Source: Euphorbia lathyris (lineage: Eukaryota; Streptophyta; Magnoliopsida; Malpighiales; Euphorbiaceae). Taken from it: a stretch of DNA of 64,000 nucleotides. The notes below the pieces were generated by a model. The model made no database searches. It saw nothing but the letters and a program-made list of their open reading frames with translations, and had not been told where the DNA came from. The translations under genes were made by a program, and so were the position numbers. The number at the start of each line of letters is the position of its first letter. Position 1 is the first letter of the stretch. Below, piece after piece: positions 7,012-41,944 of the stretch. The stretch covers positions 17,016,001 to 17,080,000 of the forward strand of contig NC_088917.1 in NCBI RefSeq assembly GCF_963576675.1, given 5' to 3'.

Positions 7012-8436
7012 TCAACGAAGAGTGATAGCCTTTACCTGCTCTTTCGTATTTTCTTCCGTATGGTTGGGAAGACTTCCCTCTTTTCGGGATGGAATTGATT
7101 TAGCAAGTTGAGCAATTTGAACCTCCAAATTATGGATGCTAGATGAGTGGTTTTTAATAAGCTGATCGAATTTATTTTCGATCCGTTTAAAACCATCGTC
7201 GTGATTACTTATTTTTCCACTGATAGCATCTATAAACTTGTCGATTTTAGAAGATAAAGTGCTAATCGTATCTCTTGACTGATTTTGATAATTAGTGGTA
7301 CGATTTTGATTAGCACTTGCATTATTGTTATTGTTTTCTTTCCAGTTAAAGTTAGGATGATTCCTCCATCCAGAATTATAAGTATTAGAATAAGGATTAT
7401 TAGTTTGGTTTTGCCCTTGGACAAAATTTACCTGTTCTATCTCACTCATGTTTTCGTAATCCACATCCGTTTGGGTTGGATTACCATTGGTATCGCGTGG
7501 TGCCATAAACTTATCAATTTTGTGCGATAAAGCAGAAAATTGGGCTTGTAACATCGCGACTGGATCAAGTTCCACTATACCTTTAACTGATGGTGTGGTT
7601 GAGGATGATGGTTTTTCCACCGGTATATGTCCACGTTCCGCGGGCCACATACTGCTGTTGATTGCCATTTCCTCCAAAAGTTCTCTTGCTTGGGCTGATG
7701 TTTTCTTCATAAATAGCCCTCCCGACATAGCATCTAATGAACCCCTAGTTGTAGGATTTAGTCCATTGTAAAATGTTTGCATTAAAAGTTCAGCGGGTAA
7801 TTGGTGGTGTGGGCATAAACGTTGAAGTTCTTTAAAACGTTCCCAAGTTTCATAAAAAGTCTCATTATCATTTTGAGAAAAAGATGTTAACTCTTTTATG
7901 AGTCTTGCGGTTTTTGCTAAAGGAAAATATTTCGATAAAAATGCTTGGGCTAATTGTTCCCAAGTGGCAAAAGTTGCGGCTGGCATAGAAGTTAACCATT
8001 CTTTGGCTCTATCCTTCAAAGTGAAAGGAAAAAGGCGAAGTTTGATTGCTTCTGCAGTCACATCTGGGATTTTAAAAGTGTCACAAATTTCAAGGAAATT
8101 TGTTAAATGGGTGTTAGGATTTTCGTTAGGTAACCCGTAAAATGTTACATTATTTTGCAACATATTAAGCAAAGCTGGCTTAATTTCAAATTGGTTTGCG
8201 GTGATTCTGGGTCTAACGATACTATTGGTCACACCGGCCACACCTGGCCTAGCGTAATCCATAAGTGTTGGTGGATCTGCCATTTTTTCTGGCCCGGTAA
8301 ATGTTTTTACTGGAGTCTTATTTTTGTTTTTCTTGTTTTTCTTATTCTTCCTAATGGTTTTCTCAATTTCTGGGTCTATAGGGTCTGGTACAATGCCTAA
8401 ACTTCGAGAACTGCGCATGAACCTGAAATCTTGCAC
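7012..8436 (-). pseudogene. Athila gag
   Basis: 474 codons from the first ATG (8436). A Lys/Asn-rich start is followed by the retrotransposon gag core at about residues 110-240 (AKEWLTSMP, FLSKYFP, ETFYETWERFK). The C-terminal third is Asn-rich, then helical. There is no CCHC knuckle, as is usual for Athila. It would form the cytoplasmic virus-like particle. The frame ends with a TGA in the AITLR*GKNY context that joins gag to pol; Athila elements normally read a serine there, so the stop is probably a later mutation. Confidence 0.88.
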
Positions 8437-29209: not shown

Positions 29210-29212
29210 GGA
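29210..29212. repeat. 3-bp target duplication GGA, left
   Basis: GGA before CACTACACC; matched at 39745-39747 directly after the right terminus. CACTA elements make 3-bp duplications. Confidence 0.85.
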
Positions 29213-29510
29213 CACTACACCATAGATTGCCTATAGCAACTAATTTTCAAAAATCGCTACCGTCAATCGTTGCATTTTCTTGCATTACCAAATTTTATTT
29301 TATTACTCATGTTTATGTAAGTCTAATGCAACGATTATGCATGAAGTGTTGCTTTCGATTTATTTTTAATTGCTTAATTTGAAGAAAGGCAACAATAATA
29401 TGATATTTACGACATGTTGTTGCCTTATTTAACTTGGTAATTAGATAAAGCAACGACGTACCATGTGAAAATACTATTCCATCGTTGCATTTAAAAAAAT
29501 GCAATCACTA
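29213..29510. repeat. Left terminus and subterminal repeats of inner CACTA
   Basis: The terminal repeat at 29213-29240 is followed by scattered GCAAC/GTTGC motifs (for example near 29270, 29328, 29347, 29388, 29451, 29482), mirrored at the right end. Confidence 0.85.
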
Positions 29511-29884
29511 TACCTAATTAATTTGATAAATTTAATTTCAACACTTAATAATTATGATTCTATACATAGTTTGTAAATAATTTCCTTTATTGACTAATAA
29601 AAATAGAGTAAAGTTGTATAATAATTTTTTTATGCAGTAATAGAAAAAAAACTAAAAAAACAACTAAAAAATTTGTATTTTAAATTATATTATTTATTTA
29701 TTATGAAATTAAATGAAATTAAATTAAATAAAATTCTATTATTCTCTATATAAATAACAATTATATTAACAATCTATTTAATATAATTGAATATAAATAA
29801 TATAATTAACATAATTAATTTTACTTAACTTTATTTAATGATAAGTTTAATAAATTAATTAATAAGTTAAAAAGTAATAAAATA
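29511..29884. other. AT-rich internal sequence of inner CACTA
   Basis: Very AT-rich, no coding potential or clear repeat structure. Confidence 0.6.
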
Positions 29885-30466
29885 GGGTTAAGGTGCAAAA
29901 ATATCCCTAACGTTTTGAGTTAGGAGCAATTTTACCCCTAACGTTTAAAATGGTGCAATTTTACCCCTAACGTTGGAAACCAAGAGCAATTTTACCCCTA
30001 ACGTTAATAAATTGGGTCAATTTGAGAAATAATTCATCAAACTGTCTTCTCGGTCATGAATCTTGTTATCTACACTTCATACATGTGTCATTTTATCAGT
30101 AACAAATCACAAACATTTGTTAGGATGTGAAAAAAATAAAAAAAATATACTGTCTTTTTGTACGGATTAGACAAAAAAATTCAAAAAATCTACCGAATTT
30201 ATAAATATTAATCTCAAATTCTATTATTAAATTATAAAAAACATGAAATTCTTTTTTTTAGAACAAATTGTTATGGAATTGGTGCAGAATAATGAATAAA
30301 AATTTATGTGTTTTATAATAGTGTCTAAAATTGATCCAATTTATCAACGTTAGGGGTAAAATTGCTCTTGGCTTCCAACGTTAGGGGTAAAATTGCACCA
30401 TTTTAGACGTTAGGGGTAAAATTGCTCCTAGCCCAAAACGTTAGGGGTATTTTTGCACCTTAACCC
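29885..30466. mobile_element. Mutator-like MITE with long periodic inverted repeats
   Basis: 582 bases flanked by the 9-bp duplication aataaaata (29876-29884 and 30467-30475). The inverted repeats are about 135 bases long, start GGGTTAAGGTGCAAAAATA and are themselves built of a 20-base unit of the form GCAATTTTACCCCTAACGTT repeated about four times. The centre is AT-rich and noncoding. The 9-bp duplication indicates Mutator-type transposase acting in trans. Confidence 0.92.
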
Positions 30467-30475
30467 AATAAAATA

Positions 30476-31436
30476 ATTAAATATAACTATTATTTTTTAA
30501 TAATTATAATAAAATAAAATAAATTAATAAGTATAATTTGTAAAAATTTATAAACTCTTCTTATTAATAATTCCCCAATTTTTTTTTGTCCAATATACAA
30601 TCCTCCCAAAAAAAATTGGATTCCCTCCAAAATTATATCAAATATATTTGGACCATTTTTTAGGCAAAAAAAAATTAGTCAAAAGAGAATCAAGTTGTTC
30701 TGAACCCCTCTCTCCCCTCTATCCTTTGTGCGATCTCCTCTCTCCTCGAGTCTGATCAGCCTTTAATCCAAATTGTTCTGAACCCTAAATATTTGCATTT
30801 ACAATATTTTCTCAAAAGTCTTCATACCCATAAAGGTAGGTTCACGCGTTCAAGGACCTATTGAAGTCGAGGCTCTTCCGCAGTTGATGTGGGGTTGTAT
30901 CTGTATCCTCTTTTTTAATTGATTCGATACAATAGGGGAAAAGAGCTCATGCCTCATCTTCCCTTCATTCTAAGGCTAAATCCAGGTCTGATTTAGTTCA
31001 GTTCCCCAACCAAACATCATGCCGCCGGTAATCACCTCCATACCATCAGCTCTGGATGTCGACCTCCACTGACTTGCTTTTCCTGGTTCAGATTTGAATA
31101 ACAATCATAGTCAAAGATCGATGATTTTCCAGTTAGTTCGGTTAGTTTATTAGTTTAGTATAAATTTCAATTGTGTATTTACTGATATTACAAATTTATG
31201 AAATTAGGGCTCATTACCCGGAATTGGAAATTTTGGATCAAAGATTTATTACAGATGCACTGTTATCAGCTCAACTTCTTGAATACGAAATTTCTCTCTC
31301 GTTTATTCAATTTGCATTGTTTCAATGTGAATTTATGGAGTGCCTATTGAATAATCCTTACATTGAAGCTGGATTTGAAGGGCTTCAGCGCTAAGCTCTG
31401 AATCTGCCAAAAGGTTTATTCAATTTCTCATATGTA
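30476..31436 (+). other. Probable promoter and 5' UTR of the CBL gene
   Basis: 30700-30800 is CT-rich like a plant 5' UTR. 31197-31394 contains an open frame (AHYPELEILDQRFITDALLS...), which begins just after an acceptor-like AG; I do not recognise it, and it might be an exon of another captured gene or chance. No clear TATA box was fixed. Confidence 0.4.
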
Positions 31437-33015
31437 ATGGGTTGCATTTTTTCAAAAAGAGTAACGAGAGCTAAGAGAGCTGAGTTGGAGGATTCTGTTA
31501 TTCTTGCTGATCAAACACCTTGTAAGTTCCCAACCTTTCATTTGTTCCATTGTCTAACCCAAATTTATTGAAGCTTTAAGCATTTTAAGGCAGAAAAACT
31601 AACAAAGATCGGTTTCCTTTGACCAGTTTCCAGAAATGAGATTGAAGCTTTACATGAGCTATATAAGAAACTAAGTACTTGCGTTGTCAAAGATGAGTTT
31701 ATCCAGAAGGTTGCCTCTTATCACCAAGTAATTTTAGTTGCTAAGCAAGGCACTTATATTATATCTTAATAGTGATTTCTCCACTTTTGACTCTTCATTA
31801 ATTTGCTATTACTTTTCTGAAAAACAGGAAGACCTCAAGTTTGCCCTTTTCAGATATAACAATAAGCAGAACCTCTTTGCAGATAGGGTATGTGCCTATG
31901 TGGTGTTAATTACATTACATGTTATTTTAACTCATAATTATAGACATGATTAAGCTTCCTTGTTAGGGATTTTTTAGAATTTTACCTGTAATGTGACATC
32001 CATTATTGCAGATTATGCTTAAGCATGTCTATAACTATTGAACAAAGAACAATTGATTTATGACATCTTTATTAAAATGCAAAGTTTAGTAGTTGTTTCA
32101 ATTCAGATCATGTGGTTTGTCTTCAATAATCATTCATCATTGTTTGTCCAATGAAGATTTGCTCCCTATAGGCTATATCATGTTGAATGTTTGGAGATAT
32201 TTGATCTTTTTGATGTCAAACGCAATAGGCATATTGACTTTGGAGAATTCATCCTTTCTTTGAGTGTGTTTCACCCAAAAACTCCTGATGCAGTCAAAAT
32301 TAAATGTAAAAACTCTTTCAGTGGTTTTATAACCTGCATATCATTCGTCAGATATTCTTTATGTTGCAAGTTAGTTAATGTGTTGTAGCTACTAAAGCAG
32401 AAAACCTAATGTGGCAGATGCGTTCAAACTGTATGATCTGAGGCGTACTGGTTACATTGAGTATGAGGAGGTGCATTCTTTCTTCCCGTCCCGTCCCATT
32501 TTGCTGCCATTTCACTCAGCTCTTGCTTTTTGAAATTTGTATAAATTGAAGTAATTTTGATTTCCTTTAGTTGGTTTTTGTCCTTCGGTTATGTCTACTT
32601 GAAACTCACAATCAGGTTGCTTCCAGATTTTTATGAGATTTTTCCAAGAAAGTGTATTAACTATGGGAGTGGAAACACTGATGATAATGTTGACAGTTGA
32701 AGGAGATGGTATCTGCTCTATTGGAAGAATCCGATTTGCATATATTTGAGGATGTTATTGAAACAATTGTAGACAAGGTATGAAAAAATGTGAGATTATA
32801 CTCTTGAGGGCTCTACTCTCACTTTTGTTTCCGGACTTGTGGTTTTGATGTTTATAATCTCTGCTTTGTCTATTATTTAGACATTCAATGAGGCCGATAC
32901 AAAAGGCGATGGACGGATTGATCAAGAAGAGTGGGAAGAATATGTGGCGAGGAATCCATCGCTCCTAAAGAACATGACACTACCTTATTTAATGTACTCT
33001 AAAAACTTACAATGA
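31437..33015 (+). CDS. Calcineurin B-like (CBL) calcium sensor, missing the normal last exon
   Basis: Seven exons fit with GT/AG introns: 31437-31521, 31627-31709, 31828-31887, 32197-32305, 32418-32470, 32697-32777, 32881-32993. The 60, 109, 53, 81 and 113-nt exons are, as I recall, the sizes conserved in plant CBL genes. The frame is open for 194 codons. MGCIFSK fits N-myristoylation plus palmitoylation, so it would be membrane-bound. EF-hands include [27 protein letters not shown] and the canonical [14 protein letters not shown]. CBLs bind Ca2+ and activate CIPK kinases. The C-terminal exon with FPSF is absent: reading on stops at 33013-33015, or an alternative exon at 33114-33177 adds 20 unrelated residues. 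Closest in feel to CBL4/5/8. It lies inside the inner CACTA, so it is probably a captured copy. Confidence 0.85.
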
Positions 33016-33470
33016 AAACTTATTTTTCAATTAACCATCTTTTACTTCTATATTGAAATCATGCTTCTTTGCAATCAGATTACTGTTTTTGCTTCTTTTC
33101 GTGTTTTTACCAGAGTCAAGGAATTAGAAGTAAGCAGAAGAGGAAGGCTCGAAGCTTTTAGGTCAGAATTGATTTAGGTCAATATAGCTTTTAGGTTGCT
33201 GATTAGAGAATCGATGGAGTCTAGGGTCCTATTGTCATCAACATAGAGGCTTGCCGGATTCCAGTCAAACAGAATCAAAAAGGTAAACTCTCGTTCTTTT
33301 GATTTGAAAAGTTTCATACATTTGATAAGCATGAGGATTAATTTTTAGTTGCTTGGATGCTGTTACTTTGGAAAAGGACTAGAATTCTTAACATATATTC
33401 TATTGTATAATTTCATCATAAATTTTATTGTATAATTTCATCATAAATGAAAATGAACCATCCTGCTTTA
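33016..33470 (+). other. Sequence between CBL and PPR pieces
   Basis: Includes the possible terminal CBL exon 33114-33177. Otherwise noncoding, with a short repeat (TTTATTGTATAATTTCATCATAAAT near 33396-33448). Confidence 0.45.
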
Positions 33471-33660
33471 GCAAATCAATGATATAAATTGCAAATTCCT
33501 ATGCTTTGTTCTAGAATAAGGATTTGTTTTTCTCCCATGTATGCAATTCTAAAGTAAATGTACTGATGCCTTCTTACATGCAATGACATTTAAGCTTGCT
33601 AAATGTCTTTGAGAGATCATTCACATGTAGAATATTATATTCCCAGTACACATGGTAGAA
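33471..33660 (+). repeat. Direct repeat before the PPR fragment
   Basis: Matches 34837-35025 (TGATATAAATTGCAAAT, ATAAGGATTTGTTTTTCTC, TGATGCCTTCTTAC, GTCTTTGAGAGATCATTCAC). Same orientation, 1.37 kb apart. Confidence 0.88.
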
Positions 33661-33707
33661 TATTTGTTGAGGTTCAACCGGTCATAGACAAAAAAAAGGC
33701 ATTCACA

Positions 33708-34670
33708 ATGTCTCCTACGATACTGCCTCCAATGTCGTTCTACCGTCTGTCTCTTTTCTGCTCTTATCTTGCATCAACAATAAATCCTTACCACAGGGTA
33801 AACAACTCCATGCTCTTATTATCTCTATGGGATTTGAGCAACACCCAGTTTTGGTACCCAAGCTTATTGCTTTTTATTCACAGTTCAATATGCTAGTTGA
33901 TGCTCATACTGTAACTGAGAATTCAGACATCTTAGATCCTCTTCCTTGGAATATTCTCATCTTGTCCTATGTTAGAAATACACTGTATGGAGAGGCTCTT
34001 TCTGCTTATAAACAGAGGAAAAGTAAACGTATCAGACCTGATAATTTCACTTATCCATCTGTTCTTAAGGCCTATGGTGAAACAATGGATCTAGCCTTTG
34101 GAAGAGAGGTTCACACGTCTATTATTGCTAGCAATCAACTGTGGAGCTTGTTTGTGCATAATTCCTTGGTTTCCATGTATGCAAAAACTGGTGAATTAGA
34201 CATAGCTCGTTGCTTGTTTGACAGTATGCTAGAAAGAGATGATGTCTCTTGGAATGCTATGATCTCTGGTTATGCCTCCAACAGAATGTGGAATGAAGCA
34301 TTTGATTTGTTTGAAAAAATGCGGGTTGAAGGTGTTGAAGTCAATGCTATAACTTGGAACACCATAGTTGGAGGGTGCTTGCAGTTGGGAAACTTTAAAG
34401 GGGCACTTCATTTGCTTGCTCAGATGAGAAGTTGTGGTATTCATTTAGATTTAGTGGTAATGGTAATTGGTTTGAGTGCATGCTCCTACATAGGGGCCAT
34501 TAAATTAGGTAAAGAGATTCATGGTTCAGCAATCCGTAGCGTTCGTGATAGTGCTGATAATGTTAAAAATGCACTGATCACTATGTATTCTAGATGCAAA
34601 GATCTTGAACATGCTTATATTATGTTTCAATCAATTGAGACTAAGAATATAATCACTTGTAACTCTATGC
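33708..34670 (+). pseudogene. PLS-class PPR protein fragment
   Basis: The ORF from 33827 encodes pentatricopeptide repeats: PLPWNILILSYVRN, PDNFTYPSVLKA, DDVSWNAMISGYASN, ITWNTIVGGCLQLGN and NALITMYSRCKDLEHA are classic P, L and S motifs. Upstream homology (LFCSYLAS, then GKQLHALIISMGFE) continues in another frame, so one frameshift lies near 33797. After NIITCNSML the PPR pattern stops at about 34670; the remaining ORF to 34849 is unrelated. The last PPR and any E/DYW region are missing. Relatives act in organelle RNA editing or processing. The overall pattern reminds me of the At1g71490-type protein. Confidence 0.82.
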
Positions 34671-34836
34671 TTCCGTGCCTCCACCTTTGGGCCCAACTGA
34701 AACAAAAATTGCTCCATGTATCCTTATCTAGGCCAAAATTGCTCCAATTTGGTAATGTTAATGACAAAATTTTATTATTTCTTATGTTGGAGGAAAGAAC
34801 ATATATCACAGAAGAACAAGATGCAAATGACCCAAA

Positions 34837-35025
34837 TCAGATGATATAAATTGCAAATGCCTATGCCTTGTTCTAAAATAAGGATTTGTTTTTCTCTCCT
34901 TAATGAAATTCTAAAGTAAATATATTGATGCCTTCTTACCTGCAATGACATTTAAGCCGGCTAAATGTCTTTGAGAGATCATTCACAGGTAGAACATTAT
35001 ACCCCGAGTGCACATGGAAGAACTG
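34837..35025 (+). repeat. Direct repeat after the PPR fragment
   Basis: Partner of 33471-33660. Confidence 0.88.
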
Positions 35026-36217
35026 GGTGGTAGTCAACTTGTATAACTGCCCTCGACCAGTACGAACCTGTAGTCTCTTAAGCTAGGTGCGAGAACACTA
35101 AAGGGAGAGTGATCAACGTCTCTCAATCAAACGAGGTAACAAGTACAGCAAAAGAATAAGATTAATCAAATGGCCCTTATTCACTTAACTGAGTTCCTTG
35201 TAAGAGTTTGTAGGTTTGGTATTTGTCTGTGCCAATGGTATTAGGCTTTTTCCAGCTTTCTTGATTTATCTGAAAAGCTAAATAATGTCATGTTGGTAAA
35301 TAATGTCATTTGTTCTACTTGCTTTATTTATGTGTTGCAGCTTGTTCCTTTGTGTTAAGTGTATCCAAGGTTTCTCACCTTTATTTAGCCGAGGATGGAG
35401 TTTTTGTTGGTAAATAATGTCGTTTGTTCTTGCTTTATTTATATGTGTTGCAGCTTGCTCCTTTGCGTTAAGTGTATCCAAGGTTTCTCTCGTATTGCAC
35501 ACCAAGCTTGCAAGTCAATTTTAGGTTTACTACTAGCGTGTGAAAACTAATTGACAATCAGCCATATAAGCAATAAGCATATCTGGTTCTCACTGACTGT
35601 TCAAGTTTATCCTTCTCTAGAGCTTGGAAGGTATAGTCCTTTTTGTTATTTTTCTAGTATCCAAACATGTAGTTTTACATATATTTCCTGCTTTGTATGC
35701 TGTATTTTTTATCCTTTTTGCAAAAACTATTGTTTATTTATTTATTATGGTAGGCTATTGCTTCTTTTGCATTTCTGGGAAGATGATATTCGATAATCAC
35801 TGAACTCTTTTTATCAATTAGGATTTTGGTTTTAGCCTTAGGCACTATGTTAAGGCTTGATTGTTTATTACACATGCTTTGTCATTTATGTTTTAGCCTC
35901 CTCTTTTGTTATTAAAGGCAGCCCTGAGGCATTCATAGGTGAAATTGGTTTCTTGATTGGTTTTACTAATGGACTTTTTTGAAACCTTGGCTTGCAAGCT
36001 AATTAATTCATAGCCTCCTATCTTAAAACTGTTAATTGGACGAACTACCCTAAAGAGAATGCATAAATTTCCAATTTACTATTGAAGTTTATGTTTTTTG
36101 AGTTTCATTTACTCTATTCTAGGAAATGGTGTGGAACACTATTTTGTTTTTCTTTTTGGCTCTGAATTTGTAGCTCCCCCTGATCTTACCTATTATTGTT
36201 GTTCTATTATGCTTTAG
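35026..36217 (+). other. Spacer with a tandem duplication, no gene identified
   Basis: 35294-35385 and 35410-35500 are two tandem copies (TAAATAATGTC.TTTGTTCT ... GTGTTGCAGCTTG, GTGTATCCAAGGTTTCTC). The rest shows intron-like T-rich sequence before the SAC exon. Confidence 0.6.
35294..35500 (+). repeat. Tandem duplication of about 115 bases
   Basis: Two adjacent copies described by the shared blocks TAAATAATGTC, GTTGCAGCTTG and AAGTGTATCCAAGG. Confidence 0.8.
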
Positions 36218-36530
36218 GATCATACTTAATAGTTATAACCGAACGCGAATGTGTTGGATCGTACTTGGGACATCCTATCTTCAAGGTCACAGCATTGAAG
36301 ATTTTGCCTTGTGACCATTCTGTGAAAGATTCTCCAGCAGGCCAGGTACAGCTGCTGCCTTATTAGTATGCATTCTTTTCTGGTTATGTGAATAGTGAAT
36401 GATTTCGACTGCGATCTTTGCACTGATTATTTGGCAGAAAAAAGGTGGAGACCGAGTTTTCTGGGCTGCTTAATGTTGCGGAGCAGACTTCGGGTCTGTA
36501 TTTCTCATATGACACCAATTTAACACTCAG
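36218..36530 (+). pseudogene. SAC-domain phosphoinositide phosphatase, two exons
   Basis: Exon 36218-36345 encodes GSYLIVITERECVGSYLGHP, then FKVTALKILPC; exon 36438-36530 encodes VETEFSGLLNVAEQTSG and LYFSYDTNLTL. Both match the N-terminal part of SAC phosphatases (plant SAC6-8/RHD4 group, ER-associated, acting on PtdIns4P). Splice borders are AG/GT. One extra A in the six-A run at the start of the second exon puts it out of frame. The catalytic CX5R(T/S) part is not here. Captured fragment in the inner CACTA. Confidence 0.78.
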
Positions 36531-37347
36531 GTGAAAAATTGATCTGCATTGTTCATTTTCATCTATCTACATTTGTTTACGATCTCCATTTTGTTTTAAA
36601 TTGTTGTGGCAAACCTTAAGAACGTTCTTAGATGATCATATACCTATTGCATTCTTTTTCTTTTCTTCTTTGTTCTCAAAAACTAGTAAATAAAGAAAAA
36701 GTATAGTAGAAGGAAAATTTTGTCGTAAGCATGTTTTGGCTAGAAGAAAGACGTTTATTTCTTAATTACTTATAAGAACAAAAATATGGAAACTTATAGC
36801 AGTTTGCTGATTGAAAGATTAGTGAGAATCATACCTTCCTTCAGATTACTTTGACCCGGGTTGATATGTGGTTGCATAAACAGAGGTAACTATCAGGCAT
36901 ATGAGGTAATTATAAGTAATTAATTTATATGAAAGCTTACTTGTAATTTATAAGGTAAATTTGGTCTTTTCTTTTTCATTATAAGTGGCATGAAATTTAA
37001 GTCGCCCAATTTTATTATAATGTTTTTTGGTCTTTTCTTTTTCATTTAAGTTGCTTCTCAGATAGTTGCTTTATTTTGTAAAGCTTTATTATTATTATTT
37101 CCATAGTTCTTTGTTATAGTTGCTTCTGTTAGGTAAAGCTACTAATTGTGAAGTCTTTATGGCAATCCATTATTGCTTTATTTGTAAAGCTTTATTTTCT
37201 TTTTACATCATTGTTATAGTTGCTTCAGATTAATAATGAAGCGAAATGTAAAGTCTATATATGTGGCAATCCATTATTGTTAGTTTCGTTTAACCAACAA
37301 TGCACATTAGGTAAGTCTCTGATATCATTATCTCATATGTTTCTCAG
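36531..37347 (+). other. Noncoding spacer between SAC and BELL pieces
   Basis: AT-rich with several short repeats (GCTTTATT, TTGTTATAGTTGCTTC near 37090-37230). No coding match found. Confidence 0.5.
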
Positions 37348-37408
37348 GTATCCAAGCAATACTGATAAGCATCTATTAGCTCAACAGATTGGTTTATCAA
37401 GAAACCAG
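37348..37408 (+). pseudogene. BELL-class homeodomain exon fragment
   Basis: A 61-nt exon between CTCAG and GTACAT. Read with a leading G it gives 20 codons, YPSNTDKHLLAQQIGLSRNQ. This is the start of the TALE homeodomain of BEL1-like factors, which place a 61-nt exon exactly here before VSNWFINARVR. The neighbouring exons were not found, so only a single exon survives. BELL proteins pair with KNOX factors in the nucleus. Confidence 0.78.
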
Positions 37409-38200
37409 GTACATTTTTCTATCTCTCTTTTTATATATATTTAAAGATCAGTGTCAAAGTTCTCATATTTGGAGATTGATTTATATTTGTATACACTGCA
37501 CTAAAATTCAATTATTAAAAAAGGTTTTCCATAGGCAGCAACATATAGGTTGCGGTCTTCGGCAACTTCACTAGCTGTTATTGCGAAAAACAACACTACT
37601 GTCCCCGACATCGACCTTGACCCCAACAGCAATTGTTCGGTTTTCTTCTTTGAAAAATTCTATGGATGAAATTTTGATTTCCATTTTTCTAAAATTATAA
37701 ATTAGTCTCTGTTTCTTTCTTAATTGTTTTCCTACTTAATTTACTATTTTTCGAGTTAAAGATTGTTTTCCTACTTTACAAAATGTTTTCGACAGGCAGT
37801 AGCATATAGGTTGCTGCCTTCGATAGCTTCACTAGCTGCTATAACGGTTGTAGTCCTCACTTAACAAATTGTTTTCCTAGATTCTGATAGGCAGTATTTT
37901 GGCAGCTTCACTAGCTGTTATCATGGACAACAAGACATTGACATCAATGTCAACATTGACCCTCAACCCGACCCGACCCTCGCCCATGATCCCGACCTTA
38001 ACCCCAACCATGATCATGACCTTGACTTTGATTAAAGTTTTTCTTTTGTTCTTTATTAATTCCATTCCATTGACTTCCATTGTAGTAAATTACACCAACG
38101 ATCAATAAGTGTTTCAAACTTGCTTCGGATTAGCTATCGCAAAGCAGCAGTTGCTGCATTGACAATATTTGTTGATGGAGATTGGTTGAAGTGAAAATAT
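37409..38200 (+). other. Repeat-bearing spacer before transposase remnants
   Basis: Three related blocks containing GGCAGCAACATATAGG / GGCAGTAGCATATAGG / GGCAGTATTTTGGC followed by TTCACTAGCTG.TAT lie at about 37523, 37785 and 37880. 37965-38030 is a CCCGACC/CCATGATCATGACC simple-sequence stretch. No gene found. Confidence 0.55.
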
Positions 38201-38413
38201 TTGTGTCTAATGGGCCATGATGATAATATTTGGTTGGAACTTCCCAAGTATAGTGAAGAGTATGTTAATGGAGTGAAGTCATTTGTTCATAATGCGTTTG
38301 CTAAATATGCTTATGGAGACCAATTGTTTGCATTTCCGTGTCACTCTTATTGTGTTTGTATTTATATACTTGTGTGGTCAGTAATGAAAATTCATATATT
38401 TGCTACTTTATGA
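38201..38413 (+). pseudogene. CACTA transposase-associated domain remnant
   Basis: WLELPKYSEEYVNGVKSFV followed by HNAFAKYA matches the N-terminal transposase-associated domain of plant CACTA TNP2-type transposases (usual form W-x-L-P-R-x-S-x-E-Y-x-x-G-V). The following Cys-rich C-P-C motif is degraded (FPCHSYC). The DDE catalytic region is missing, so the element cannot transpose alone. Confidence 0.72.
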
Positions 38414-38640
38414 AGCATTTAAACAACTGTATCTTTTTTAGACCTTATGGCTTCAAGGACCAAAAACTTCTAAAGTTTATGGTAGAAATTGAATCGATAT
38501 AAGAACTCAGATGCTTCTTTATTTAAATCAGATTTTTTTTGTTTTCTTGTTCCCATGATATTTGTTGGTTTTCTTGTGCCCATGATATGTGTTGGTTATC
38601 TTCTGTTTGTTTTCATGTTTTAATTCTACAGTCAAGGATT

Positions 38641-39000
38641 GAAGAGTTGTCGTCTACCGGGGGGAAAACATTGAACAGATTGATGAAATACTCGGAGGCT
38701 CGTGATGTCATGGTCGTGAATATCTAGTTGGTAGGATAGGCTCCATGAAGAAAACAAAAAGTTATAGGAGAGCCGAATCTTCAACTACTACAAGTAAGAG
38801 CCCCATGTCTGAAGATGCAAAAGAGCAATTCAAAATGGAAATCAGAGAAGAAATCAGAGAGGAAGTGAAGAATGAACTATAAGCTCACCTTGAATTTCTT
38901 GTACAGAAGTTGAGCCTTATGAACCCATCACTCAATCTAAATTTGGATGGTGTTCTTCCTACAGTTCCTTCCAATGAATGCCACGACTCATTTATTTATC
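38641..39000 (+). pseudogene. CACTA TNP1/Transposase_24-like C-terminal remnant
   Basis: Frames read RIEELSSTGGKTLNRLMKYS, then after a short break GRIGSMKKTKSYRRAESSTT and an amphipathic stretch EQFKMEIREEIREEVKNEL before a stop. A basic linker plus Glu/Arg helix is the usual tail of the accessory DNA-binding protein of plant CACTA elements. It is near the right end, as expected for a plus-strand gene of this element. Confidence 0.55.
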
Positions 39001-39089
39001 CTTGTGATGATACTTTAGGATTTGAGATTTTATTATTTAGGTACTCTTAGATATTGATATTTAGGCACTTTTGGATTTTGTTGCTTGAG

Positions 39090-39744
39090 GATATTTATCT
39101 AAACAGGCGTTGCCTTCTAGATTATAAATATCATCGTTGCCTTTTTGTTATAAATATTGTTGCCTACATTTTACAAACATCGTTGCGTTCTATTCTAAAC
39201 ATCGTTGCACTTGTAAACAAAATATCATTGCCTTTGTTCTAAAAATCGTTGCATCTATAAAAGAAAATTGTTGCCATCATGTTACAAAGCGTTGCATTAT
39301 TTAGAGAAATATTGTTGCTAAAAATTCAATCCGTTGCCTTTGCTGTAAAATTGTGTTGCTTTTGCTAACAAAAAACCCGTTGATTTAAAAAATAATTGTT
39401 GCATTAGACAACTAAACTGTTGCCTTAAGTTTGAAATAGTGTTGCCCTTTATAACTAAAGGCAACGACTAATAAATGTAAACGCGTTGCTTTAGGATTCT
39501 TGTTTCGTTGCCTTATAGTTGTATCCTTCAACTGTTGCACTTGCTAAAAAAAAGCAACGACGTCTTAATTGTTGCATTAGAGAATATTTCGTTACCTTTG
39601 AGAGAAAAAGCAACCGTGAATTAACCAACGAAAATAAATTGATCAAAATCGTTGCCTTAGCCCATTTTTAGCCATAATGCAACCATTTTTTGTGCCTAAC
39701 GTAACGAATCATCATCGTTGCAATAGGCATTCTATGGTGTAGTG
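39090..39744. repeat. Right subterminal repeats and terminus of inner CACTA
   Basis: More than twenty GTTGC/GCAAC motifs (CGTTGCCTT, TCGTTGCA and similar) in both orientations, ending in the terminal repeat 39717-39744, which reads CACTACACCATAGAATGCCT on the minus strand. Confidence 0.88.
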
Positions 39745-41944
39745 GGATAAGGTACCAAAATAGGCCTAAGGTTTTTGGGGAAGTATCCATTTAGGCTCAA
39801 CGTTCAAAATAGTACCAATTTAGACTTAACGTTTACAACATAATATAAGTTGCAGATGATGGGATATTAGTTATTCCCACAGTTGCAGATCCTCCCTTGA
39901 AGCTTAATACAAAGAAAGGGTATTCTGCAGAGTCTCAAGAAAGGGTGTGCCAAAGAAAAATTTATGTTAATTAACATCAAACTAACACATATCAACATCA
40001 TCATCTTCATGATTTGTATCTTAGATGCTATCAATTTGTTGCTGCACTGCAGATGAACCATGGCATCTTGTAGAGCTCCTATTTGATCTAAGGGAGCCAG
40101 CATATATTATATATGTATGTATAGCTATCAAAATGAAGATGAGTATGAATACTAGTGTTGCATCAAATAAACCAGCATTTAATTAAATTTAATAAACAAA
40201 AGCTTCATATTTTGTTAATTATGACAGTGTAGAATTCACTTTCCTAGCTAGGGCTGTTGATTTTAATGAAGAAATAATGAAATTAATCTAAAAGTTTAAG
40301 CTGATATTCAAGATATAGGATTTCAACCTTCAAGATCTCTATAGCATGTAAAGAGTATTTATATTACTTGTGAGACCACAACCGACAGTTAAATAGTGTG
40401 AGATGAAACCCAGAGTTCCCCAAACAATTCAGTGGATAATAAAAAGAATCCCCAATGAAGTGATCAGGAGAACTCAAGGTCACAGCTGACATTTTCTCTT
40501 TTATGTGCACTTTCTTTTGTTTGTTAAAGATATCTCCTCCTATTTATACACATTGTTGAAAAATATGAACTCCCATTTCAGTTAATTTTAAGTGCTGTAA
40601 CAATCAATTTCCCAGTGAATATGCATAGCATTTGTATTATACATTGGAAAAGAGGGGACCAGAGAGAAAGAAGGATTGAACTTGGTTAGTATTTTAGATA
40701 ATAGGAAGAGAGAATAATCAGGTATTCAAGTGGTCACAACCTCTTCTAAAACTATCCCTTTCTGTATTGTTTTTCGCTAAATCTGCAATCTGCACTTCCA
40801 TTTCGTTAAGAAAAGATGGAAAAAGATTATGTGCAAAGAGAATAGGCACCCAAACAATTATTCCCTATATATATCTCCAATTAATCTTTTCATTGTTTCT
40901 GTCCAGATTCACTTCCACCACTTTCAGAAGTCAACTAATTATTTCAATATATAATGTTGCAACAAAAGCCATAGGCTAACAAGACAAAAAAACCTAAAAG
41001 AGTGAATACTTCAGCACCTTGAAAGAAGCGACTGTTCTTAAATTCTAAATTACAAATACCAGAATTCTATAAAATGATGAGAGACATAATATCCTAAAAA
41101 TAAAATTTCATGGTAATGAATTCTGAAAAAGATAAAATTGAACATGCTCACCTAGTCCAGAATCATATTTTACCATGCATTAAACAAATCAAGCATCAAG
41201 TGTTTTCCATTACTTCATTAGGACATGCACCAAACAAAATGAAAGAGTAGTTCCAGTGAAGTCAGATCTAATTAAAATGATGGAGCAATAGATGTTTTAT
41301 GTTTATATTAACCAATTAGATAACTCATAATAATTAAGATATTTAGTACATGCTAGTTTGAGTATTCTAGACCCTATGTCAGCAATGCTTAATCGCAGAC
41401 TCTGGACATCCATCTTTACAAATAATTGAAACATTAAAATTGACTACAAAAGAACATTAAAATTGAAGCATTAGTTGAATAATCAAACACAATTAATTAA
41501 ACATTAGTTGACTATTTTCAACTTGTGTTTTTCAACTAATAAATATTCATTACTTGTGTAAAGCTTAAGCAGAACTAATAAAATTGAAATTTTCAAAACC
41601 AACCTTACAGTACTAAAGCTTAAGCAGAACTTAAAAATATAACTAAATAGTCAGCATTGACATTAAACCATACAACTGCAGACCAACGATATTACTTGTT
41701 CATTAGAAAGAATTGTTTTCAGTTCCTTCTTTCATCCATGCTACAAAACATGATAAATTAATTGAAATGAAAGAGAGAAGAAAAACAACATCATCTTTAA
41801 ATTTAACTTGTTGCAGAAACAGACCCAGGAAGAATAATGTGTTGTTAAATTAATTTCACAGAAAGAGAAGCAAATTACCGAAACATAAATCTACAGCAAT
41901 ATCATTTCATATACCCAACAACTGAGTGAGTGAGAGCGAAAGAG
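39745..41944. other. Outer CACTA internal sequence, no clear gene
   Basis: 39750-39840 has a TAGGCCTAAGGTTTTT / TAGGCTCAACG / TAGACTTAACG series resembling the end of a small Mutator-like element. Otherwise AT-rich intron-like DNA. An ORF at 39867-40103 (minus) has no recognised domain. Confidence 0.5.

Follow-up and report, generated by a model that had tools for sequence, protein, structure and literature searches.

The stretch analysed here is a 64,000-nucleotide window of the Euphorbia lathyris genome (C8:17016001-17080000), in which positions 29213-39744 are a 10.5-kb transposable element that carries pieces of host genes (Table 1). The element belongs to a large CACTA (En/Spm) family. 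In the genome searched, which comprises 1.02 Gb in 33 contigs, its first 300 bp have 160 candidate sites, and the best 40 of these 160, the window included, all score 83-100%. Its 28-bp inverted ends begin in the CACTA manner, are complementary at 26 of 28 positions and are each bordered by GGA. When up to three mismatches are allowed, the window holds just these two end matches, and none was found in 100 shuffles. Duplications of 3 bp also border all four relatives in which both ends are visible (GAT in L011 and L016, AAA in L017 and TCT in L019; labels of this kind denote loci). This is the classic length of the target duplication in CACTA elements, whose superfamily is also marked by subterminal repeats. 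The motif CGTTGC, counted on both strands, occurs 18.6 times per kb in the last 700 bp of the element, 8 times per kb in the first 500 bp, and 0.08-0.17 times per kb elsewhere. A 5-nt target duplication is given for maize and rice CACTA sets in the available portion of one source (PMC8903248). Helitrons and Pack-MULEs also carry gene fragments, and a miniature inverted-repeat transposable element (MITE) nested in the element has a 9-bp duplication. However, the CACTA-type ends, the 3-bp duplications, the tnp2 frame of a relative and the CGTTGC repeats leave a Helitron or Pack-MULE mosaic with a negligible probability, and we rejected that identity on the ends and duplications.

Four pieces that resemble host genes lie between the ends: most of a CBL4-like gene, a fragment of a PPR gene, a probable SAC fragment and a probable BELL homeodomain exon. 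All of them are oriented on the plus strand, as is a transposase remnant. The element has no intact transposase: only the start of a tnp2 frame is present (from 38210, breaking off at about 38340), the frame in the right part is broken, and the longest open reading frame is that of the PPR piece. The remnant matches Transpos_assoc at E = 1.5e-4 and 22.3 bits, below the cut-off of 27.7. It can be aligned to the beginning of the tnp2 frame in L047, a family member on C10, and the opening peptides of the two are nearly identical. An earlier note on this DNA, made from its letters alone, had described 28-bp termini with a GGA duplication, four host pieces on the plus strand and transposase remnants on the same strand. 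The termini and duplication proved to be as described, and the alignment to L047 bears out the remnant despite its low score. Among the host pieces, CBL and PPR are solid, while SAC and BELL are only probable, with Pfam matches below the cut-offs. The earlier note mentioned neither the native CACTA sequence located between the captured pieces nor the younger MITE-like element nested in the whole.

Table 1 Features of the CACTA element (window positions)
Feature	Positions	Strand	Remarks
Left terminal inverted repeat	29213-29240	+	CACTACACCATAGATTGCCTATAGCAAC; GGA target duplication 29210-29212
Native left end of family	29213-29673	+	81-86% to nine relatives, 78% to L036/L047, 96% to C5 sister
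Nested MITE-like element	~29885-30466	.	long inverted arms; 9-bp duplication AATAAAATA
Sequence shared with C5 sister, possible 5′ flank of captured CBL	30467-31436	+	94.8% over 30467-31154, 95.4% from 31152
CBL4-like gene	31437-33107	+	captured; ends within intron before last exon
CBL exons	31437-31521, 31627-31709, 31828-31887, 32197-32305, 32418-32470, 32697-32777, 32881-32993	+	
Native CACTA segment	33112-33660	+	collinear with L047 1059-1476; 33112-33341 78%, 33486-33660 90%
PPR fragment	33708-34672	+	965 bp, 96.9% to intact C7 gene; frame still open
Second native CACTA stretch	~34674-35282	+	34848-35282 matches L047 1302-1741; also L037, L038, L039
Probable SAC fragment	36101-36541	+	exons 36218-36345, 36438-36530 (borders by eye); C2 copy 96.8%
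Probable BELL homeodomain exon	37348-37408	+	61 nt; AG before, GT after (borders by eye)
Native CACTA interior	37518-38326	+	L016 80% over 37518-37843; L047 75% over 37716-38326
Native right part	38321-39744	+	broken frame, dense CGTTGC repeats; 74-92% to relatives
Right terminal inverted repeat	39717-39744	-	GGA duplication 39745-39747

The PPR fragment (Pfam E = 6.8e-35) has its donor in an intact At1g71490-type gene on C7 (L046 1271-3460), which is one uninterrupted frame of 729 codons and whose protein matches a Euphorbia lathyris record at 100% identity. The fragment differs from this donor at 30 of 965 bp (3.1%). Apart from PPR, all that an NCBIfam search returned was a single additional weak match, to the PPR frame. 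Native CACTA sequence borders the fragment on both sides. The order in L047 is 22-506 (left part), 1059-1265, 1302-1476 and on to 1741; the order in the window, in L047 coordinates, is left end, CBL part, native 1059-1476, PPR, native 1302-1741. The L047 segment 1302-1476 is present twice in the window, at 33479-33660 and 34841-35022, flanking the PPR fragment. Identity between the two copies is 89%, and either one compared with L047, L037 and L039 gives 88.5-91.2%. With 11% between the copies and 3.1% between the PPR fragment and its donor, the copies had diverged by the time host DNA was placed between them. Such a pattern favours a fusion of two adjacent elements that enclosed host DNA.

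A family member at C3:90.31 Mb (L036) has the same left end and contains a second piece of this PPR gene, whose start is 198 bp upstream of that in the window. Its PPR sequence (91% to the donor over 585 bp and 96% over 137 bp) has a different native setting and different junctions, and is most simply an independent capture. Rearranged pieces of this gene, at 91-97%, also occur in L035 (C7:72812926), next to an open frame of 292 codons that contains kelch repeats (Kelch_1 E = 7.8e-25).

The CBL4-like piece comprises seven exons, whose borders were set by eye to fit CBL proteins, and six introns with GT/AG borders; the last exon is missing. Spliced, the exons amount to 584 nt with 194 open codons, and the frame, if read on without splicing, stops after seven more codons. 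They match plant CBL4 proteins, best that of Euphorbia peplus (78%). The top E. lathyris protein among the matches listed (best 120 of 1071) is CBL7, at 72% over 92% of the query. Chromosomal relatives occur on C1, where exons 4-7 as well as the last exon are present (93% over 32024-33107), and at C2:27.57 Mb, where a scrap of exon 6 remains along with exon 7 and the last exon. The C2 remnant is about 7 kb from a gene with exons that match E. lathyris CBL7. Since both relatives continue past 33107, where they are homologous to each other and include the last exon, 33107 is a capture junction. Exons 1-3 were found at high identity only in the window and in a sister element on C5 (DNA search, best 40 of 45), the CBL7 locus being at 66%, and no intact CBL4 elsewhere in the genome was returned by a single DNA search. 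To judge by these matches, the CBL donor seems decayed, and the chromosomal copies look broken so far. The sequence upstream of the first exon may be 5′ flanking DNA of the captured gene; from 30700 on, a genome search matched it only to C5 and, over 61 bp (85%), to C9.

Near-completeness, an open frame, good splice sites and the lack of any returned high-identity copy of exons 1-3 save that in the C5 sister might suggest that CACTA sequences inserted into a resident and perhaps functional CBL gene. However, the same piece is joined to the same left-end CACTA sequence on C5, host remnants elsewhere run beyond the break at 33107, and one pair of ends with one target duplication encloses the whole. 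The substitutions moreover show no constraint (8 non-synonymous and 2 synonymous codon changes relative to C1). A resident gene is thus very unlikely. We give a low, though somewhat higher, probability to the idea that a near-complete CBL4 (SOS3-type) gene survives in E. lathyris solely in this transposon family, with chromosomal copies reduced to 3′ remnants; the captured copy, which retains its start, might then still yield, by transcription from the CACTA left end, a calcium sensor without the normal C-terminus.

A CBL7-like 3′ piece recurs in L030 and L031 (about 96% to L026) and at C2:42711048, C2:131236451, C3:108113352 and C3:1976541. The 94% identity of L030 and L031 over 2.65 kb suggests that another mobile element has likewise taken up a CBL gene.

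The SAC fragment matches Syja_N at E = 7.4e-6 and 26.0 bits, just below the Pfam cut-off of 27 bits. Its second exon on its own had no Pfam match, and a search of solved structures gave no match up to E = 1. The BELL exon is the weakest of the four pieces (Homeobox_KN E = 2.3e-4, 21.4 bits, cut-off 24 bits), and its one structure match, at E = 0.55, was taken as noise. These scores would be expected if both calls were due to chance or transposon-derived sequence, leaving CBL and PPR as the only real host captures. On the other hand, the SAC fragment consists of two consecutive exons with AG/GT borders in a stretch that is present on C2 too, and the BELL exon also has AG and GT borders. We therefore consider spurious calls unlikely, and both pieces are probable host captures.

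Parts of the mosaic recur at two other sites. The sister element at C5:57.52 Mb has the left end (96%) and 30467-32600 (about 95%), then jumps to 38067-38726 (93%), so that it carries CBL exons 1-5 together with the left end. A copy at C2:71.64 Mb has 32678-34053 joined to 36101-36541, both at about 97%, and the join contains a short stretch that is almost shared. Its order is that of the window: CBL 3′ part, native segment, PPR, SAC. Over 346 PPR positions compared with the donor, the window and the C2 copy share 6 differences, while 8 are found only in the window and 4 only in C2; the shared differences point to one capture. By eye, the C2 PPR copy contains a stop codon. As part of our best explanation, the mosaic probably spread and was trimmed differently at other sites.

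The C2 copy (L044 3412-5219, L048; C2:71640001-71652000) is located antisense between an LTR-like (long terminal repeat) sequence and a Copia-type gag frame. The surrounding Copia-type element matches Retrotran_gag_2 (E = 7.8e-16) and RVT_2 (E = 1.3e-32), and its long repeat was taken as the 5′ LTR.

Our survey of the family covered twelve other members with at least about 3 kb (C5:57.52, L011/12, L013/14, L015, L016, L017, L018, L019, L027, L028, L036 and L047), six of which were scanned for frames of at least 95 codons. Host-type pieces occur in at least four of the twelve: CBL in the C5 sister, a PPR-type frame in L016, an ABC transporter exon in L018 and the same PPR gene in L036. The ABC transporter exon and the PPR-type frame lie at L018 4402-4701 and L016 2656-3213 (minus strand), respectively. 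L047 has an open tnp2 frame with 508 codons within the stretch examined (Transposase_21 E = 2.7e-90). At C7:15.698 Mb (L004/L013), a left end adjoins an oppositely oriented stretch like 39120-39744; here, one family member lies against or inside another.

Taken together, the element is probably a non-autonomous Pack-CACTA whose cargo was assembled at the DNA level in several steps. A tnp2-type transposase would be supplied in trans by family members, and movement would be by cut-and-paste. In the case of the PPR piece, for which fusion of neighbouring elements is the likeliest origin, two family members would have inserted on both sides of a portion of the host gene, the inner ends of both would then have been lost, and the outer ends would have mobilised the whole as a single element. 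The CBL piece has a similar setting, between part of the left end and a native segment that is about 1 kb from the left end in L047.

The earlier note had also proposed repeated captures at the DNA level, and had named a resident set of genes as the alternative. Support for DNA-level capture comes from the six CBL introns and one SAC intron that were kept, although the PPR piece is uninformative because its parent is one uninterrupted frame; capture through reverse transcription is rejected on the retained introns. Repetition of the captures is supported by the differing junctions of CBL and PPR with native DNA, and by the other PPR piece in a sister element. The search for parent loci that the note had advised succeeded for these two pieces, with an intact PPR gene on C7 and CBL relatives on C1 and C2. 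PPR and CBL are therefore not resident neighbours, and a resident gene cluster is rejected. The note had further advised looking for the same mosaic at other sites, and this was found in part only: left end and CBL 5′ part on C5, CBL 3′ part, PPR and SAC on C2.

A different route to the same Pack-CACTA would need no fusion of elements: after excision or an internal break, each host fragment would have been copied in through template switching during gap repair. The PPR donor is still whole in the genome, and the nearly shared stretch at the C2 join (34053 to 36101) is typical of end joining or template switching. However, gap repair alone fails to explain why native copies that are 11% apart flank a host piece that is 3% from its donor. 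We regard this route as possible but rather doubtful.

Several points weigh against a fusion of neighbouring elements, or against the wider reconstruction of the family. The native copies could be an old internal duplication into which PPR was later copied by repair synthesis, and no former inner inverted end was found. Of the four pieces, PPR is the one at which a flanking-repeat footprint was seen; likewise, a donor is identified for PPR and relatives for CBL. L047 is a possible transposase source and not a proven mobile copy, because its left terminus is damaged, without the outermost CACTA bases, and the stretch read ends before the right end. The C5 sister (L009/L010) has no right end in the stretch read and has an extra 5.9-kb insertion at 31152-31154. 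Around the C2 copy, no ends of this CACTA family were found within 12 kb at up to five mismatches.

Capture of host DNA by CACTA elements is known from other plants. Tgm-Express1 is a soybean CACTA element with five host gene fragments and, in the available text of its description, resembles our element in carrying exon and intron pieces of several unrelated genes (PMC1947982). According to the same text, Tgm-Express1 sits in a gene intron and has demonstrated chimeric transcripts (PMC1947982), whereas the evidence on the E. lathyris element is from DNA. The latter differs further in that related partial mosaics are found at other sites. For Arabidopsis Pack-CACTA elements, a neighbouring-insertion model was reportedly put forward by Catoni et al. 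in 2019. As far as the accessible parts of two sources go, the Arabidopsis elements likewise are non-autonomous CACTA elements with captured coding DNA, and the model predicts native sequence beside captures, as seen here at CBL and PPR (PMC13317346, PMC8903248). In contrast to those elements, the native copies that flank PPR here are demonstrably older than the capture. On wheat chromosome 3B, the excerpt available describes many captures by CACTA elements, similar in this to our family, and two cases of one gene in two CACTA families, a sharing ascribed to DNA exchange between families (PMC4290129). By contrast, one donor gene is represented here in two members of a single family, by pieces whose junctions differ. 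Chenopodium CACTA elements, in the partial account available, also carry captured fragments in their 5′ part, but have fewer genes per element (PMC8978399). Searches of the literature on Pack-CACTA in Euphorbia, CBL4 in E. lathyris and CACTA in E. lathyris (the last covered partly) found no account of the element.

Tests for purifying selection on the captured pieces found none. PPR and its donor differ by 7 synonymous and 20 non-synonymous codon changes, with no stop (non-synonymous divergence, dN, 0.027; synonymous divergence, dS, 0.050). In the CBL gene, 6 of 390 exon positions and 25 of 1059 other positions differ from the C5 sister (Fisher P = 0.42); the corresponding counts are 4 of 194 and 4 of 236 for the C2 copy, and 11 of 356 and 26 of 711 for C1 (P = 0.72). 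All nine indel events relative to C1 are outside exons, which by our own arithmetic has a chance of about 0.03 if indels were evenly spread, a faint hint toward constraint. The open frames fit a recent capture, and youth is enough to explain them. A chimeric RNA of the Tgm-Express1 kind is plausible because splice sites are kept and all four pieces run in one direction.

The nested MITE-like insertion is absent from the C5 sister, which has a single AATAAAATA as an empty site, and is younger than the surrounding element. MITE-like sequences also occur near the left end in L011, L013, L017, L018, L027 and L028, and the left-end region is perhaps a preferred MITE target. The 5.9-kb insertion in the C5 sister starts with TG, ends with CA and has AGTGT on both sides (by eye). 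It looks LTR-type and had no match to the window or other loci. An RNA-family search gave one match, outside the element: Rfam snoR71 at 7799-7905 of the window (57 bits, cut-off 40), on the strand opposite to an LTR-retrotransposon gag-like frame. Either a snoRNA was captured here or the match to this family is misleading. A tRNA search found none.

The Pack-CACTA mosaic is new, resembling soybean Tgm-Express1, and belongs to a class that is already known; the footprints of its assembly are unusually clear. In plants, cut-and-paste transposons commonly capture genes, by a mechanism that is mostly inferred; here the divergence of the PPR piece and of the native segments around it orders the events and favours fusion of neighbouring elements. 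If the loss of CBL4 elsewhere in E. lathyris is confirmed, a transposon would preserve most of a host gene.

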